Origin: a bacterium
Lineage (GTDB): Bacteria > SZUA-79 > Acidulodesulfobacterales > Acidulodesulfobacteraceae
DNA length: 56,081 nt
Assembly: GCA_021850985.1 (NCBI GenBank)
Contig: JAJZJX010000011.1
Span: forward strand, 1 to 56,081
Reading direction: 5' to 3'
Shown here: positions 4,262 through 11,666 of the stretch, in pieces
Numbering within the stretch: the first letter of the stretch is position 1
Layout of the letters: the number at the start of each line of letters is the position of its first letter
Notes under the pieces: generated by a model
Told to the model about the DNA's origin: nothing
The model's database searches: none
The model's input: only the letters and a program-made list of their open reading frames with translations
Program-made: the position numbers and the translations under genes

Positions 4262-5008
4262 TTAACTGCCGGACAAAAAAGAGCCGTTCAGCTCTTTTTT
4301 GTAACTTCTCCAGGACGGGAGGAATTTATCCATAATTTCTTTAAATCTTTTATTATGGTTTTTTTCTATAAGGTGTGCAAGTTCGTGAACAACGATATAT
4401 TCAATGCAGTAAACCGGCTTTTTTATAAGGTCTAAATTTATCCATATTCTTTTGGCTTTAATGTTGCAGGTTCCCCATTTTGTTTTCATCTGCTTTATTC
4501 TTACCTCATTGGCGGAAACGCCCATTATAGTCTGCCATTTATCAAAAATATCGGGGAGTTCTTTTGCAAGTTCCTTCCTCTGCCAGTTTAAGAATATTTT
4601 TTTTCTTTCTTCAACCGTCGCCTCTTTTTTTATATAAAGACATATGTATTTTTTATCGTTAATAGCAATACTTGGTTTTTTGTCGCAGTGGATAACATTT
4701 AAAAGATACTTTTCTCCTTTAAAGTAATGGCTTTCTCCCGAAACATATTCCCTCGGAGTTTCTCTCGGCTGTTCTTTAAATTTGCTTACATGTTTTTCTA
4801 TCCAAGACATCTTAGATACAATAAAAACGCGTATCGACCCCTCGTCCATTCTCTTAGGCGCCGACACCCTTACTTTTCCGTCCGGCGGAAGTATATTTAA
4901 ATGAAGATTTTTAATATCTTTTTTTAAAACCGTAATATTAAAACCGCCTATTATTATTTCTGATTTTATAACGGTTTTATCGCGCTTTTTTTTAAAAAAT
5001 TTAAACAT
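4262..5008 (-). CDS. YgjP/DUF45-family zinc metalloprotease of the restriction operon
   Basis: 248 residues. The C-terminal half carries the zinc-protease helix HELAH (H208, E209, H212) followed by EKNHNKRF with the likely third ligand H218, and the upstream family motif TKWGTCN (177-182). This is the YgjP/SprT-like DUF45 family, which is often encoded next to type I HsdR genes, but its role there is not established. The start overlaps the end of the hsdR frame by 8 bases, so it belongs to that operon. There is no signal peptide or membrane segment. The last codons are built into an intrinsic-terminator hairpin at 4275-4300. Unlike the R-M genes before it, this gene looks intact. Confidence 0.85.
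   Translation of the reverse strand: MFKFFKKKRDKTVIKSEIIIGGFNITVLKKDIKNLHLNILPPDGKVRVSAPKRMDEGSIRVFIVSKMSWIEKHVSKFKEQPRETPREYVSGESHYFKGEKYLLNVIHCDKKPSIAINDKKYICLYIKKEATVEERKKIFLNWQRKELAKELPDIFDKWQTIMGVSANEVRIKQMKTKWGTCNIKAKRIWINLDLIKKPVYCIEYIVVHELAHLIEKNHNKRFKEIMDKFLPSWRSYKKELNGSFLSGS
4275..4300 (-). terminator. Intrinsic terminator inside the 3' end of the DUF45 gene
   Basis: A 10-bp perfect stem (AAAAAAGAGC / GCTCTTTTTT) with a 6-base loop reads as a stem followed by a T run on the minus strand. It lies wholly within the last 13 codons of the DUF45 gene and would end the island operon before pycA. Confidence 0.65.
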
Positions 5009-7055
5009 AATCGGATTGATTTTTTACTATATTAAACAGTTTTTTCACTGTTTCATCTATGTTTTTATTTAACAACACACCTAAATTATTATATGCAGGC
5101 TTGCTCTCCTTAATAGTTACTATACCGGCTTCAACCCCTATACCGTTCTTATATTCCGCTAAAACTTGTTTTATTATGTTTTTTAACTCTCTCTCCTTTA
5201 TTTTATCGCCTCTCCAATTATCTTTTTTCCTGCTCATTATTTCTTTATCAATTTTCAAAGCTAAATATGCACTCTTGATTTCACCTAAATTGTCATATAG
5301 TGATTTTTGTGCTTTGCTTTTTAAAGATAAAGGATAATCTTCGCTTTCTTGGTCATTTGCAATAAGTTTTTTAATTAAAACTTCTATTTCTTTAAGATAA
5401 TTTTTATAATCTACAACCTGCTCTTTTCTTTGTTTTGTTAAATCCTCAAGAATAGTAGATATTTTGTCATAATACTTTGGATTTGTCGGCTGCTCGTCAA
5501 TAATTAATTTACGAATATTATTTTCTATAGTTTCTGCAACAGCGTCGGCATTGTTTCTTATATCTTCAGGCATCGATTCTATTATCGAATATAAATTTTT
5601 AATTTTCAACATTTGAAGCATGGAATGGTCTTCAAAAGAGGATAATTTTACGCTGCTATCGGCAACAAGCATGACATTTCCTCGCCCATCTTTAAGCCTT
5701 GGTTTTGTTTCAAAATCAAAAATAATATCATCTACGATTTTTTCCAATCTTGACCTTGACGATTAAAGTTTCTGCATAGTTCCCCATTTCTTTTTCAACT
5801 GATTTCTCGCAACATCAGTCAAACCTTTTGTTTTTGCCTCAAACCATGTATCTATTCTTTCCTGTGAATCAATCTTTTGATCTACGTCTCTTGCTTCATA
5901 TCTTAAATCTAAAATAACACCGTCTTCTACAGCACGGTCGAATTTATAAGTATGAATGTAGTTTCCAAATGTTTCCAAAGTAGATAGTTTGTCTTTCTTA
6001 AGCAATGGAGTTCCGGTAAACCCTATAAACACCGAATTTGGCAAAATGCTTTTCATTGCCTTATGCAGTTTTCCAGATTGCGTCCTATGACATTCGTCGA
6101 CAAAAACATAGATATTGCCTTTAGGGTTGAATTCTTTAGGTAAATTTTGTTTAAGTTCCTCAATATAATTTTCATAATACTGTTCTATATAATTATTTTT
6201 TGTTCTGCCAAATTTATGAATTAATGAACATATCAAAGATTTCTGTGCAGATTTTACCGCAAAATACTGATTATGCCTTGCAATTTTTTTAATACCCTTA
6301 TCAAATATTATAAAATTATAGATTAATTCCAAAAACCTGCTTTTTTTTAAAAGAAAAAATAATGCCCTATCCAAAATATTTTCTATTTTTTCTATACCTG
6401 AAATATTTTCGGCTTCCTCTTCTTTCCACTCCATATAATATTTTGCAGGGGTTAATACCGTTCCGTATCTCAATCCCTGCGTATCGTTTCCAGCCAATAT
6501 AATCTGTTGAGTAGTGAAAAATTGAGGTATAAACTCTTTCTTCTGATTGTCTAAATTTTGCCTAATACCTTCGCCTATCGATATGCTGCTTCTTTTTAAT
6601 TCAAGAACTCCTAAGGCTATGCCATTAACGTAAATGACAATATCCGGTCTCTTATTATATTTCCCGATAATCGTCACTTCTTCGGCAATAGCAAAATGAT
6701 TATTTCTGGGATTTCTCCAGTCTATAGGCCAGACTGTTTTAGTCGTTTCCGATTGAGATTCTTTGATATGCAAGCCATAACGCAATAAACTATATACATC
6801 TTTATTCTTGTCGTAAAGGCTCTTTTGCTGATTTGTGGAGGTTTTAATAAGTTCTGCAATTGCTTTTTTTATTAAATTTTCGGAGTAATTTTGCTTTTGT
6901 AAATATTCTTTTAAAAGTGTTTCTTCGATATTCCCGTTATTTTCTCTTTTTTCCCAGTTTCCAAGATAATCGTAACCTAATTCTTTTTTAAAGAATTCTA
7001 TAACTCTATCCTGAGTTTTTCTTTCTATCTGTCCAATCTGAGAGAACTGCTCCAT
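5001..7055 (-). pseudogene. hsdR: Type I restriction subunit HsdR, broken: two in-frame deletions and an in-frame stop
   Basis: One frame of 685 codons where related HsdR proteins have about 1000. Residues 1-270 hold the N-terminal nuclease region with the PD-(D/E)xK elements RPDIVIYVNG and LELKR. The frame then passes from KSAQ directly to KSLICSLIHKFG (junction near 6242), so the segment that normally carries the Walker A GxGKS motif is missing. DECHRTQSG (motif II, D320) and GFTGTP (motif III) follow. A TAA at 5765-5763 replaces what is probably a leucine codon after GTMQKL, and the same frame continues SSRSRLEKIV. Near 5654, GNVMLVADS joins SVKLSSFED, skipping the second motor domain and most of the helical region. 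A TTG at 5747 could restart a 248-residue tail. A functional ATP-driven translocase is not expected. The missing segments are inferred from the family architecture. Confidence 0.85.
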
Positions 7056-7301
7056 TATTTATTAGTATCTAAAATAATTTATCTTTCATTCGCCTCATTC
7101 CTATTAAATCTATATGAAGCGAGGTTAATGTTATATCTCTTAAAAAAAGAATCTACATTCTCAATTCAGCTTTCATTAACTTTTTTATATTTTACTCGGC
7201 ATTTATTTGCATTTAATAGTTATTTAAATTATTCGTAATAATTATTTTTATTATAACATAATTTATTTTGGTAAATTAAAATGATATCTGCTTTTTAAAA
7301 C
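7056..7301. other. 246-base gap between hsdS and the hsdR remnant
   Basis: Very AT-rich. On the minus strand short frames broken by stops are seen (for example around 7080-7180), but none is recognisable as a gene. A TATAAT-like box lies near 7250-7258. The gap is unusually long for this otherwise tight operon and may be the scar of another deletion; that is inference. Confidence 0.4.
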
Positions 7302-8492
7302 CTATACTAAACGTATTTTCCCTGTAAGCAATACCTGCATTACCCCTAGCTTAATCTGTTTATATTTATCCCTTTTTCGTTCAAGCGTCTCAATTTCCGT
7401 ATCCATGTCTGAAAGGACGGAGGCGATGGTTTGTTGTTCAAATGTATTTGGAATTTTAATTTCAATATTTTGATACTCTGAAATCCAATATTTTTTATGT
7501 TCTAAATTTAAGGGCAAATTGATCAATTGAATTTTACCGTAAATAAAATTTAAATCACAGCTAATGTCTTTTAATTTTAAAATTTTTATCGCTGAAGATT
7601 TTACCTTAAAAACAAAATCTACATATTTATTTTCTGTAGTGAAATCATCAAAAATAATAACGGGTAATTCTCTAAAAACTCCATTTTTTTCTTCTGTATA
7701 ACCTAAAATAAAAGTTTTTCCAGCAGTCAATACAGGAATAGTTGCATTTTTAAAATATTCTGCGCTTTTAACTATATATTTTGCTGGTTGCTCATACTCT
7801 AATACATCCCTTAATTGTTTCATTTTCCAATCTTCATTAAATCCTGGCAGTTTTCTTTTTCCCGTCAACAACTCCTGCATCGTTCCCTGCTTAATAAGTT
7901 TTTTCTTTTCTATTAATTTATCAAGGTTTTCAATAAGTTCGTCAATATCTGAAAGAACAGAAGCAATTTTGGATTGCTCCTCTTTTGATGATGGAACTTG
8001 AAAATAAATTTCTGAAAAATCCTTTTTAGATATAATATTAGTTGCTGTTATTCCTGCTTTGCTTAGCAAATAATTTTTATTAAATTCAATTAAATAATAT
8101 AAAAATTCATAATTATATTTTTTATTAGGTATAATTGCATTTATCTGCTGATTGCTCGCACCTCTCTTTTTTAATATAACATTTTTACCGATACTTGCAA
8201 TACATGTAACTAAAATTGAATTTTCCGGTAACTCTCTAATTGTTTTTAATCCTTTTTCGGTGATTTTTCTTTCAGTTGTATAAATATTTTTTTTATTTAT
8301 TATATCTGTCGGGGTAACCCATGAAATATTGCCATTCCAAAAGTCTTTAATCTCTGTTGAAGGTGTTGCGCCGGTAATAATCTTTCCTAATTCATAACTT
8401 TTTTTAATTTCCCAGTCTTCCGGAATTATCCCAAGTTCTGTTTTTTTGTATCCTTCTGGAATAACATTTTTCACTTTTGCATTCAAATCCAT
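7302..8492 (-). CDS. hsdS: Type I restriction-modification specificity subunit HsdS
   Basis: 396 residues with the usual two-fold layout. Target-recognition domain 1 begins at GIIPEDWEIKK (about residues 22-175). A conserved helical spacer follows (EEQSKIASVLSDIDELIENLDKLIEKKK, then QGTMQELLTGKRKLPGF). Target-recognition domain 2 covers about 220-350, and a second copy of the spacer closes the protein (EQQTIASVLSDMDTEIE, GVMQVLLTGKIRL). Each domain normally recognises half of a bipartite DNA target and the helices position two HsdM subunits. It starts 29 bases after the RadC/HsdM gene. It looks complete, although both of its partner subunits are damaged, so it may now bind DNA without modifying or cutting it. 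Confidence 0.92.
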   Translation of the reverse strand: MDLNAKVKNVIPEGYKKTELGIIPEDWEIKKSYELGKIITGATPSTEIKDFWNGNISWVTPTDIINKKNIYTTERKITEKGLKTIRELPENSILVTCIASIGKNVILKKRGASNQQINAIIPNKKYNYEFLYYLIEFNKNYLLSKAGITATNIISKKDFSEIYFQVPSSKEEQSKIASVLSDIDELIENLDKLIEKKKLIKQGTMQELLTGKRKLPGFNEDWKMKQLRDVLEYEQPAKYIVKSAEYFKNATIPVLTAGKTFILGYTEEKNGVFRELPVIIFDDFTTENKYVDFVFKVKSSAIKILKLKDISCDLNFIYGKIQLINLPLNLEHKKYWISEYQNIEIKIPNTFEQQTIASVLSDMDTEIETLERKRDKYKQIKLGVMQVLLTGKIRLV

Positions 8493-8521
8493 ATTTAATT
8501 TAATTATTGTCTTTCTTTTAA

Positions 8522-10045
8522 TTAAACTTCAAACCCCATTTCTTTCAAATGCGATTTTACCTTTTGTTCAAGCTTAATCGTATTTTTCTCCAATACGCTT
8601 AATTTATTTTCATACCTAAGAGCAAGTTCCTGTATCCTTTGTGCCAGCTTTTGAGAAACCTTCTCCTTCTCTTCTATTATTCTCATCTTGATTGCGCTAA
8701 ACCATTTATCTTCGACAACGAGAGTTTTAGTTTCATCTTCGTTTAGTTCTTTATACTTATTTAATAATTTTTCGTCGAGCTCATACTCTGCTTTTTTAAT
8801 TTCCGCGTTTATTGCTGATTCCTTTGCTATCAATTTTAAGTATTTAAGTAAAACCTCAAGTTCATCAACAAATTCTGCGTCCGTTTTTATTTCTTTTATT
8901 CTCAATTCTACGTTTTTCTTTTTAATTTTTCCGTCGCTCGATTTAACTTCTTCTAAAAGTCCTCCCTCCGAACCGTTTTCTTCTTCAAATTCTTCTATAT
9001 ATCTTTTTATATTTTCTTTTTTAATATTTAATTCGTCTATTTTTTCCTTATCTTGCAGAAAATATTTGCCGATAACAATTTCTTTAGGTAAAAGTTCTGA
9101 ATTCCATTCTCCTTTTTTTATTTTTCCTTTACTATCCTTTATTTCATTTATGTCCGCTTTCCAATCATTTTCCATAATTATATAAACATCGTCGTGCATT
9201 GTTTCTGACCAATAGTCCATAAGCTGTTGATAAATATCGTACTTATCTATAAGCTTTATATTTTCAAAACAATTCAATAAATCCTCGGAAATTTCTTCAA
9301 TTAATTTTTTAGGCGCCGTGTTTTTATTTATTTTTTTTAATTTATTAATATTGTTATTTTCCCATTTTTTTAAAACATCTATAGAGTTAAGCATTTTATT
9401 TTCTTGAAAACTATAATAACCCGACTTAGATACTATTATATGATCTAAAATATTAATGCCAAGTATTTTGCCTGCATCTTCAAGTTGTTTTGTAACGTTT
9501 AAATCTTCTTTGCTTGGCTCAAGACTTCCAGATGGATGGTTATGGACTAAAATTATATCTGCTGCTCTATCAGTCAGGGCATCGGCAAATATTTCCCTAG
9601 GATGGATAAGCGTTCTGTTAAGCGTTCCTATAAAAACAACTCTTTTCTGTATAAGATTGTGTGCCCCGTCAAGAGTTATAACTATAAAATATTCCTGTTT
9701 TTTACTTTTTAAATCGTCGGTTAATTTTAAAATATCATCGGATGACATTATTTTTACTTCTTCTTTTATTAAAAATCTTCTAGAAAATTCTATAGCCGCC
9801 GATATTTGAGTGGCTTTTGCCAATCCTATGCCATCTATTTTTGTGAGATTGTCGATATTCAAGGAATTAAAATCCGATCGTGCAATTTTTAAAATATCTC
9901 CGGCTAAATTAAAAACGTCTTTTCCTTTTATGCCGCTTCCCAATAATACTGCAAGCAGTTCGATATCCGAAAGTGCTCTGGAACCTTTCTTGTTCATTTT
10001 TTCACGAGGCTTGTCAAATACCTGCATTTCTTTTATGCGCTTCAT
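8522..10045 (-). CDS. Chimera: RadC (JAB/MPN) joined in frame to the C-terminal part of HsdM
   Basis: 507 residues. Residues 1-221 form a complete RadC-like protein: a helix-hairpin-helix stretch (IDGIGLAKATQISAA, about 70-84) and the JAMM metal motif HNHPSG...D (H168, H170, D181), ending at the usual RadC terminus GYYSFQE. From about residue 222 the sequence is that of the C-terminal part of a type I methyltransferase subunit HsdM: IDVLKKW, then PKKLIEEISEDLL, DKYDIYQQLMDYWSETMHDDVYII, and a long charged coiled-coil tail ending VKSHLKEMGFEV. The N6-adenine methyltransferase core (SAM loop and NPP[FY] motif) is absent. The junction lies near 9382. This could be a deletion between neighbouring radC and hsdM genes that happened to stay in frame, or an established fusion. 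Confidence 0.85.
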   Translation of the reverse strand: MKRIKEMQVFDKPREKMNKKGSRALSDIELLAVLLGSGIKGKDVFNLAGDILKIARSDFNSLNIDNLTKIDGIGLAKATQISAAIEFSRRFLIKEEVKIMSSDDILKLTDDLKSKKQEYFIVITLDGAHNLIQKRVVFIGTLNRTLIHPREIFADALTDRAADIILVHNHPSGSLEPSKEDLNVTKQLEDAGKILGINILDHIIVSKSGYYSFQENKMLNSIDVLKKWENNNINKLKKINKNTAPKKLIEEISEDLLNCFENIKLIDKYDIYQQLMDYWSETMHDDVYIIMENDWKADINEIKDSKGKIKKGEWNSELLPKEIVIGKYFLQDKEKIDELNIKKENIKRYIEEFEEENGSEGGLLEEVKSSDGKIKKKNVELRIKEIKTDAEFVDELEVLLKYLKLIAKESAINAEIKKAEYELDEKLLNKYKELNEDETKTLVVEDKWFSAIKMRIIEEKEKVSQKLAQRIQELALRYENKLSVLEKNTIKLEQKVKSHLKEMGFEV

Positions 10046-10063
10046 AAGATTAATTCAATTTAA

Positions 10064-10528
10064 TTAAATTTCAAACTTCTTCGTCAATTTTATTCCCAAT
10101 GTCTGAAGTTTGCGGTATTGAGGCGTTCCTTTTGGTATATGAATTCCGTTTGTAGCAATCCATATAAAGCAGTAGTCTTTTTTGATATTGCCGTTCAAAC
10201 TTTTTATTAAATCCTTTAACCAGTTAAGCTTCTTTTCTATAAGGCTTACTGCTTCGCTTTTGGCTGGGTGAATTTCAATACATTGGCACGAAGAATAATT
10301 CTTTATATCTAAAAAAATTATATAATCCCATCTATTTTGATTAGGATAGGTTTTTTCATAACAAAAATCTATATTAATACTTCCTAAAATATGCTGTTTT
10401 CTTTTACCGCTTTTTAATTTAATATAATTTTCTTTATGTTGCTTTTCTATACCATCAAGTCCATCTTTAAAGCACTTTGATAAAAACGAATGTGCTTTAA
10501 ACTTATTTATTTCCTTATTTATCTCCAT
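10064..10528 (-). CDS. Uncharacterised 154-residue protein paired with the AAA ATPase
   Basis: Not recognised as a named family. It is soluble, lysine-rich and has no signal peptide. A core of alternating strands (HILGSINIDFCYE, RWDYIIFLDIK, CQCIEIHPAKSE) is followed by a helix (VSLIEKKLNWLKDLIKSL) and a further strand (YCFIWIATNG). The IEIHPA stretch after an acidic strand resembles small proteins I have seen called hypothetical in other genomes. The order of acidic residues, with D82 and the E of IEIH, is loosely reminiscent of nuclease folds, but the ExK lysine is not evident, so I do not call it a nuclease. It overlaps the end of the ATPase gene by 14 bases, which implies coupled translation and a shared function, and is followed 18 bases later by the RadC/HsdM chimera. 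Confidence 0.7.
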   Translation of the reverse strand: MEINKEINKFKAHSFLSKCFKDGLDGIEKQHKENYIKLKSGKRKQHILGSINIDFCYEKTYPNQNRWDYIIFLDIKNYSSCQCIEIHPAKSEAVSLIEKKLNWLKDLIKSLNGNIKKDYCFIWIATNGIHIPKGTPQYRKLQTLGIKLTKKFEI

Positions 10529-11666
10529 AAATAGAACCCACTATGTCGGCAACTTTTCCACTAAATTCCGCAATTCCACCCCAGTTAGATTTCTCCTCTA
10601 AATCAAGGGAAGTAATGTCTTTCGTTTGAACACCTAAATTTTCATTATCGAAATAATAAATTTTATAAGTTTTAGAAAGAATTTCTTTTGCAAAATTAAT
10701 AATATCCTTATTTTTTGAATTTATACTAAAAAGATTTAAAAACTTTTCCTCTGCTTCGTTTTTTTTTATACTGTTTTTATTTTTTTTAATTTCAGAAATT
10801 CCCCACATTAATTCTAAAATAGTATTTGAATGAGTAGAAATTGTAATTTTATAACCTCTAAGCAATAATTCAAAAATAAGCAGCATAACATCTAAAATTG
10901 CGCTTGGATGCAATCCCATTTCCGGTTCTTCGATAGTAATATATTTAACATGGTCTCTCCTTTGCACTTTACCAGACGGTAAAGCCCAATACAGTCCAAA
11001 CAATAAAGGTGCAAATTCTTTTTGTCCGGCAGACCACCCTCCAACTGAAAGTTCTATATTGTCTTTTAAAGACATGACTAATTGTTTCCTTCCTGATACT
11101 GTTTTAAAAATTATTTCGCCTTGTCTAAAAATATTTTTTTGTATGATTCCTCTTAGTTCTTTTCTTAATTTATTCTGCTGAGGAAATAGAATCTTATTTC
11201 TTGCAGACCAGTTATCTAATTCAAGCCTTATAATTTCGCTGAATTGCTTTAATACATGCGGATATGAATGGTCAAATCCTGAAAAAGGTCTTGCCCAACC
11301 CTGGTCCATAATCATAACTCTCTGCGCCGGAATATAAAAATGACTAAATTTGCGCTCTCTAGATTTTTTTATTTCTTGTTCCAAATTATAAGGTTTGTCA
11401 TTAAATATAACTTCGCTTTTTTCACCAAAAGCATTTTGCATGCCTCCGCCGAAGTATAAAGAATAAAACTCTTTTTTAATATCTTTCCATCCATAACCCC
11501 ATATTTCTAAATCTTTTTTGATATAACCCGAACTGTGTATAAGGTCAATGAGTTGCAATAATAAACTTTTACCTGTCGCCTGCGGACCTACAAATATTGT
11601 TAAATCTCCAAAATCAATGTTTGCATTATCAATAGGTCCAATATTTTTAACCTGTAATGTTTCCAT
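10515..11666 (-). CDS. AAA/ABC-type ATPase of the SMC-like (OLD/AAA_15) class
   Basis: 383 residues. It has a Walker A GPQATGKS close to the N-terminus, an ABC-like signature SVGGWSAGQKE, Walker B YITIEEPEMGLHP and the switch histidine in ISTHS. This is the two-lobed ABC ATPase layout of the AAA_15/AAA_21 families that drive several two-gene anti-phage systems. No TOPRIM or nuclease domain is visible in it, so the effector would have to be the overlapping 154-residue protein or the C-terminal lobe (about 290-383, unassigned). It is the first gene of the island operon. Its leader has no ribosome-binding sequence, only an A/T-rich AATTAATT run. Defence is inferred from architecture and neighbourhood. 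Confidence 0.85.
   Translation of the reverse strand: METLQVKNIGPIDNANIDFGDLTIFVGPQATGKSLLLQLIDLIHSSGYIKKDLEIWGYGWKDIKKEFYSLYFGGGMQNAFGEKSEVIFNDKPYNLEQEIKKSRERKFSHFYIPAQRVMIMDQGWARPFSGFDHSYPHVLKQFSEIIRLELDNWSARNKILFPQQNKLRKELRGIIQKNIFRQGEIIFKTVSGRKQLVMSLKDNIELSVGGWSAGQKEFAPLLFGLYWALPSGKVQRRDHVKYITIEEPEMGLHPSAILDVMLLIFELLLRGYKITISTHSNTILELMWGISEIKKNKNSIKKNEAEEKFLNLFSINSKNKDIINFAKEILSKTYKIYYFDNENLGVQTKDITSLDLEEKSNWGGIAEFSGKVADIVGSIYGDK

Follow-up and report, generated by a model that had tools for sequence, protein, structure and literature searches.

A single open reading frame in the window (the whole stretch of 56,081 nucleotides that was analysed) encoded a complete RadC joined in frame to the C-terminal tail of a type I methyltransferase subunit, HsdM. 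The preliminary description had offered two alternatives for its origin. That a deletion fused neighbouring radC and hsdM was well supported, and the chimera is very probably a by-product of gene fusion in a decaying defence island. This was based on the unfused gene order in another genome (G284), the lesions in the adjoining hsdR, the loss at the same site in the sister species G005, where a fossil of the operon was left, and the finding of no second fusion in the sets searched. On the other hand, the tethering of RadC to HsdS as a new DNA-targeted protein showed no sign of selection.

The frame ran on the minus strand from position 10045 to 8522, started with ATG and was 507 aa long. It was composed of a complete RadC (residues 1 to ~220) and the C-terminal ~287 residues of an HsdM of ~810 aa. 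Pfam assigned residues 4–78 to UPF0758_N (E 2.4e-20) and residues 101–217 to the RadC JAB domain (E 4.5e-43). The NCBIfam RadC models NF000642 and TIGR00608 spanned residues 12–219, above their curated cut-offs. H168, H170 and D181, which we take to be the residues of the JAMM-like HxH...D motif, were all present where the preliminary description had put them. RadC homologues stopped at about the join of the chimera (...SFLENGLIN in L003 and ...SFQAEGLLNK in L125).

Residues 202–506 matched the PADLOC profile MTase_I PDLC03027 at profile positions 498–809 of 810 (E 1.9e-71). By tblastn, the tail was 39–40% identical over 286–290 aa to the ends of HsdM frames of 805 and 817 aa in two other genomes, and its identity with the corresponding region of six intact HsdM proteins was 39–44%. 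The N6_Mtase domain (PF02384) was absent from the frame in the Pfam search (E ≤ 0.001), and the PADLOC methylase matches were confined to the tail, from profile position 498, leaving the catalytic core unmatched. These searches bore out the earlier account of one frame with a complete RadC, an HsdM tail and no methylase core, and placed it on the minus strand. The alignment put the join at about residue 221 (window ~9385), close to the position of about 9382 given before. The missing part of HsdM, which includes the N6_Mtase core, was equivalent to codons 9–522 in the 817-codon frame of the congener G009, codon 9 being taken as the likely start of that frame.

An AlphaFold model from a 22-sequence alignment had a mean pLDDT of 84.1 and a pTM of 0.52. 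This pTM made the relative placing of the two halves uncertain, and the confidence applied to each domain only. The modelled JAB domain matched the RadC structure 2qlc with a TM of 0.90 by target length, and the chimera is predicted to fold as a RadC with a helical tail. Against solved structures, the HsdM tail gave weak matches only, to proteins of other kinds. A Foldseek search of viral models returned RadC matches as well as a single fragment of an adenine methyltransferase (501 aa, E 6.6e-4, rmsd 22), which was set aside.

Table 1. Features of the chimera and of the operon around it, in window coordinates.
Feature	Position	Strand	Remarks
ygjP-like metallopeptidase	4262..5008	-	Follows hsdR in related operons (M-S-R-ygjP); most congeners retain it at this site
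hsdR 3' piece	5001..5747	-	Same frame as the 5' piece; second in-frame deletion, ~285 codons at ~5654
hsdR 5' piece	5763..7055	-	In-frame deletion of ~81 codons at ~6242; in-frame stop at 5763-5765
hsdS-hsdR spacer, 246 bp	7056..7301	.	~210 bp similar to part of G005 contig C34; an internal piece is missing here
hsdS, 396 aa, full length	7302..8492	-	66% identity to HsdS from congener G009 (residues 11-396)
HsdM C-terminal ~287 residues and stop codon	8522..9385	-	Equivalent to codon 523 onwards in the 817-codon G009 frame
RadC part of chimera (residues 1 to ~220)	9386..10045	-	UPF0758_N and JAB domain; H168/H170/D181; fold match to 2qlc
154-aa protein, PADLOC candidate PDC-M56B	10064..10528	-	PADLOC E 7.4e-32
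AAA ATPase, PADLOC candidate PDC-M56A	10515..11666	-	PADLOC E 1.5e-128; dN/dS 0.10 vs G005

In the order of transcription, the neighborhood consisted of the AAA ATPase (PDC-M56A), the 154-aa protein (PDC-M56B), the chimera, HsdS, two HsdR pieces and the YgjP-like peptidase (Table 1). HsdS was next to the chimera and intact, as described before. The AAA ATPase and the small protein lay side by side, as members of PDC-M56 do, and form a candidate defence pair. The GC content of the genes from the ATPase to hsdR was 28–33% (30% for the island), that of hisS, accC and oadA 39–41%, and that of ygjP 34%. PDC-M56B was matched in 5 of 366 genomes. The pair was present in G067 and G287 with no radC or hsd match in the examined locus, and methyltransferase-like frames were seen by eye near the pair in G067. 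A stretch of 17 in 18 bases was repeated at the 3' ends of the chimera and the 154-aa gene (window 8517–8534 and 10059–10076); a role for this repeat was considered, but the match is probably due to chance, as both 3' ends look native to their families.

The hsdR lesions, absent from the preliminary description, were mapped against the 1012-aa homologue of G009. The Walker A motif GSGKS was lost within the ~81-codon deletion, and no single open frame with Walker A was left for HsdR. In the G009 operon hsdS and hsdR nearly touch, a few bases apart, compared with the 246 bp between them here. The similar stretch on G005 contig C34 adjoined a frame resembling, by eye, a PIN/VapC toxin, and shorter matches to the spacer were found in six further genomes of the genus. 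Judged by eye, the spacer may be what is left of a small antitoxin-like gene. Other type I genes were present elsewhere in the same genome (G000): a different hsdS with hsdR near the end of contig C14 (L114), and a distant hsdM (31% identity) with hsdR on contig C44 (L116).

The site between hisS and accC was compared in 15 congeners. In the sister species G005, it contained hisS, the ATPase (92% identity), the 154-aa gene (89%), the last 22 codons of hsdR, ygjP and accC. The ATPase frame was open, and the 154-aa gene carried an in-frame TAG. Within this 20-kb locus there was no match to radC, the HsdM tail, HsdS or the rest of hsdR. Thus, G005 itself shows that PDC-M56, the hsdR end and ygjP were present in the ancestor. 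Eight congeners (G001, G002, G003, G004, G009, G011, G013 and G014) had hisS, ygjP and accC at the site, and the other island genes were unmatched in the examined loci; that of G002 held ~0.6 kb of other sequence. Of the remainder, two had these genes on two contigs each (G007, hisS with the ygjP start and ygjP-accC; G006, hisS-accC and ygjP), G008 and G015 had hisS and accC with ygjP unmatched, and G012 had accC alone near a contig end. G010 provided no usable hisS-accC locus.

The 120 nt upstream of ygjP were aligned locally with the hsdR end of the window. In G005 and G006 the score exceeded every one of 2000 mononucleotide shuffles; in the other eight of the ten congeners tested it was no better than chance. 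The hsdR-ygjP junction had thus existed in more than one lineage, and hsdR was then lost. The ygjP gene also followed hsdR in G009 and G057 and in six of nine regions examined around HsdM-tail matches elsewhere. It is possible that ygjP between hisS and accC is a domesticated leftover of a defence operon.

Between G000 and G005, dS was 0.41 for the ATPase gene, 0.36 for the 154-aa gene, 0.45 for hisS, 0.40 for accC, 0.54 for ygjP and 0.89 for oadA. The island values were about those of hisS and accC, and the island therefore looks as old as the split of the two species. The dN/dS ratios were 0.10 for the ATPase, 0.14 for the 154-aa gene and 0.12 for ygjP, and the first of these indicated that the PDC-M56A ATPase is still under constraint. 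In the congeners searched, unfused radC, hsdM and hsdS were not seen at this site, and the ancestral order there is our inference.

An unfused order was found elsewhere. Nine regions around good RadC matches were examined, and five of them (G284, G270, G298, G253 and G245) contained restriction-modification (R-M) genes. G284 (L130) had unfused radC-hsdM-hsdS-hsdR. In G270 (L125), whose RadC was the closest full-length match (54%), unfused radC was followed by an N6_N4_Mtase gene and then a gene for a ResIII protein. G298 and G253 had hsdR followed by radC, and in G245 an AlwI-type endonuclease came after a RadC-D12 methyltransferase fusion. In the other four regions (G129, G185, G259 and G331), where only type I genes were looked for, none was matched. 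The presence of radC directly before a methyltransferase gene in other genomes suggested that one deletion would be enough to produce the chimera. Around HsdM-tail matches, on the other hand, no RadC match was found in any of the nine regions, of which two of the three lacking ygjP were short contigs. HsdM of this ~810-aa kind was not seen with radC elsewhere, nor was an unfused copy of the radC/hsdM pair of the window, in the genomes searched.

The same fused architecture was sought in other genomes, as had been proposed, and none was found in the genome, viral, plasmid and phage sets. In the search of 366 genomes (at most 4 candidates scored per genome), 244 had some match, and only the window covered residues 1–507 among the matches listed. 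Searches with the chimera protein against 61 genomes and against 30 genomes of the phylum found no second RadC-HsdM fusion, and the chimera as query had no match in genome_contigs. With the HsdM-tail alignment as query, a RadC match was present in none of 80 loci in genome_contigs (the best 80 of at least 570 relatives) and in none of 12 in viral_contigs. Seventy of these 80 loci lay in frames of at least 700 aa, and ten in frames of less than 700 aa, presumably at contig ends or in split frames. Short HsdM-tail frames in G355 and G123 were rejected as fusions, with pieces of the HsdM core just upstream in both. No single place covered 80% of the chimera query in any of the 2321 plasmid records or 46 phage records that were matched. 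In the literature searched, which left subscription papers largely outside and included the available text of PMC12458937, PMC5512222, PMC9613975 and PMC6158711, no RadC-HsdM fusion was found.

To evaluate conservation, invariant columns were defined in intact homologues, each of which was left out in turn to give its range. The tail kept 43 of 47 invariant columns (0.86–0.98 in nine intact HsdM tails), HsdS 41 of 42 (above the 0.88–0.96 of seven others) and YgjP 40 of 44 (0.83–0.98 in eight others). The broken hsdR kept 153 of 163 (0.85–0.99 in eight others), about the same as the tail. Since hsdR is broken beyond doubt and still conserved, the lesions are recent, and the conservation of the tail was rejected as a sign of function. 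Recent decay explains it equally well.

We propose that an ancestor common to at least G000 and G005 carried, between hisS and accC, an A+T-rich island of PDC-M56A, PDC-M56B, radC, hsdM, hsdS, hsdR and ygjP, in which radC, hsdM and hsdS would have been present before the two species split. One in-frame deletion would have removed the stop codon of radC together with roughly the first 514 hsdM codons, so that RadC reads on into the HsdM tail. hsdR would have been broken by two more in-frame deletions and a stop codon; the order of these events is presumed. Modification and restriction by this operon would have been lost, as the catalytic parts are missing, which leaves it with neither a methylase core nor a functional HsdR. 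The chimeric protein may well be made. If it retains any activity, this is most likely only that of its RadC part, and it perhaps also binds HsdS unproductively. Judging from a single genome, the origin of the chimera is ordinary.

Some observations did not fit this decay as easily. All three joins (the two hsdR deletions and the radC-hsdM join) were in frame, with a probability of 1 in 27 by chance if independent. This was mildly unexpected, and nothing favours a selected protein more than this and the intact HsdS. The join also lies in a tidy place for an accident, where RadC ends and beyond the methylase core, which counts against decay as well. The chimera might then be a selected new protein, in which the HsdM tail docks RadC on HsdS, and HsdS would carry it to a specific DNA site, to give a methylation-free, DNA-targeted RadC complex. 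In the available text of PMC9613975, the C-terminal tail of the PacII M subunit packs against the S subunit, in a four-helix bundle, and is needed for assembly. Binding of HsdM tails to HsdS in that solved complex made a tethered RadC physically conceivable, and by analogy the chimera might stick to HsdS. The good conservation of the tail, the confident model of each domain and the recurrence of RadC as a partner of R-M methyltransferases (the D12 fusions, in the genus and in G245, and the unfused genes of G270 and G284) were consistent with such a protein. However, the fusion was present in one genome only among the sets searched, the sister species lacked the radC-hsdM-hsdS block, and the adjoining hsdR was plainly broken yet about equally conserved. 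We consider a selected protein very improbable. In its fullest form it would be a working adaptor-enzyme, with the tail in the place of HsdM on a sequence-specific HsdS that brings RadC to its recognition site. In that case hsdR would have been shed as unwanted, with RadC, the tail and HsdS kept in frame, and the protein would be part of a wider theme of RadC with R-M methyltransferases. We hold the adaptor to be very improbable.

A draft of 84 contigs that is ~81% complete, such as G000, could also contain an assembly or binning error, in which two separate places have been united in the contig and hsdM is in fact whole. The hsdR lesions would then have to be errors too, and the independent G005 draft showed loss at the same site. 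Moreover, the G000 draft contained no second copy of this HsdM tail, and its sole N6_Mtase match was with the different type I system on contig C44. Such an error is highly improbable. A variant of the deletion explanation, with odds that overlap it, is that the fusion was tolerated, with RadC still working and the tail as passive baggage. The RadC part reaches the end of its homologues and keeps the metal-site residues, and its modelled JAB domain resembles 2qlc as above. Against this, G005, the only relative keeping the island at the site, lacked radC there, though it had RadC genes elsewhere. We regard passive baggage as a possibility, somewhat doubtful in itself. Short JAB-only RadC proteins lacking the N-terminal half (L003, L005 and L022) were found in G005 (two) and G027, and were 70–72% identical to chimera residues 94–223 or 95–219.

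The decaying island gives a clear snapshot of a type I defence operon being dismantled, with other stages at the same site in congeners. It also cautions against reading every in-frame domain fusion in a lone draft genome as an invention. If the chimera did work, a RadC of disputed function would have gained a definable DNA target.

Compared with the RadC family, the chimera shares both domains, the HxH...D motif, scores above the curated cut-offs and the JAB fold; it differs in its ~287 extra C-terminal HsdM residues and in its place inside a type I R-M operon. RadC of E. coli is implicated in DNA repair "with some dispute" in the available text of PMC5512222, and the RadC half here may be active. 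With the type I HsdM of ~810 aa (PDLC03027) in hsdM-hsdS-hsdR-ygjP operons, such as that on G009 contig C28, it shares the tail and the usual gene order, whereas the N-terminal part and methylase core are missing and hsdR is broken.

RadC and a D12-class adenine methyltransferase occurred in one frame of 606–637 aa at L021 (G000:C32:1128-1793), L004, L007 and L138. Frames of this length were found in 7 of 30 genomes of the phylum, with Pfam confirmation in G013 and G014, and the fusion was also present in G245; in G142 and G144, RadC lay in frames of similar length. The AlwI-type endonuclease that follows it in G245 gives the RadC-D12 fusion the look of a type II R-M methyltransferase. Fusions of this kind, with a complete adenine methyltransferase and present in several genomes, give a better handle on RadC function, and are more interesting, than the chimera. 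The two share a RadC joined in frame to a DNA methyltransferase protein (G013, G014, G245 and the same-length frame of contig C32), but the D12 fusion has the whole methylase domain and recurs, whereas the chimera carries a non-catalytic tail and is the single case found. The unfused genes of G284 and G270 have the order that the deletion would require, with radC immediately upstream of a methyltransferase gene. There the genes are separate and the methyltransferase domains present, whereas in the chimera they are fused and the methylase domain is missing.
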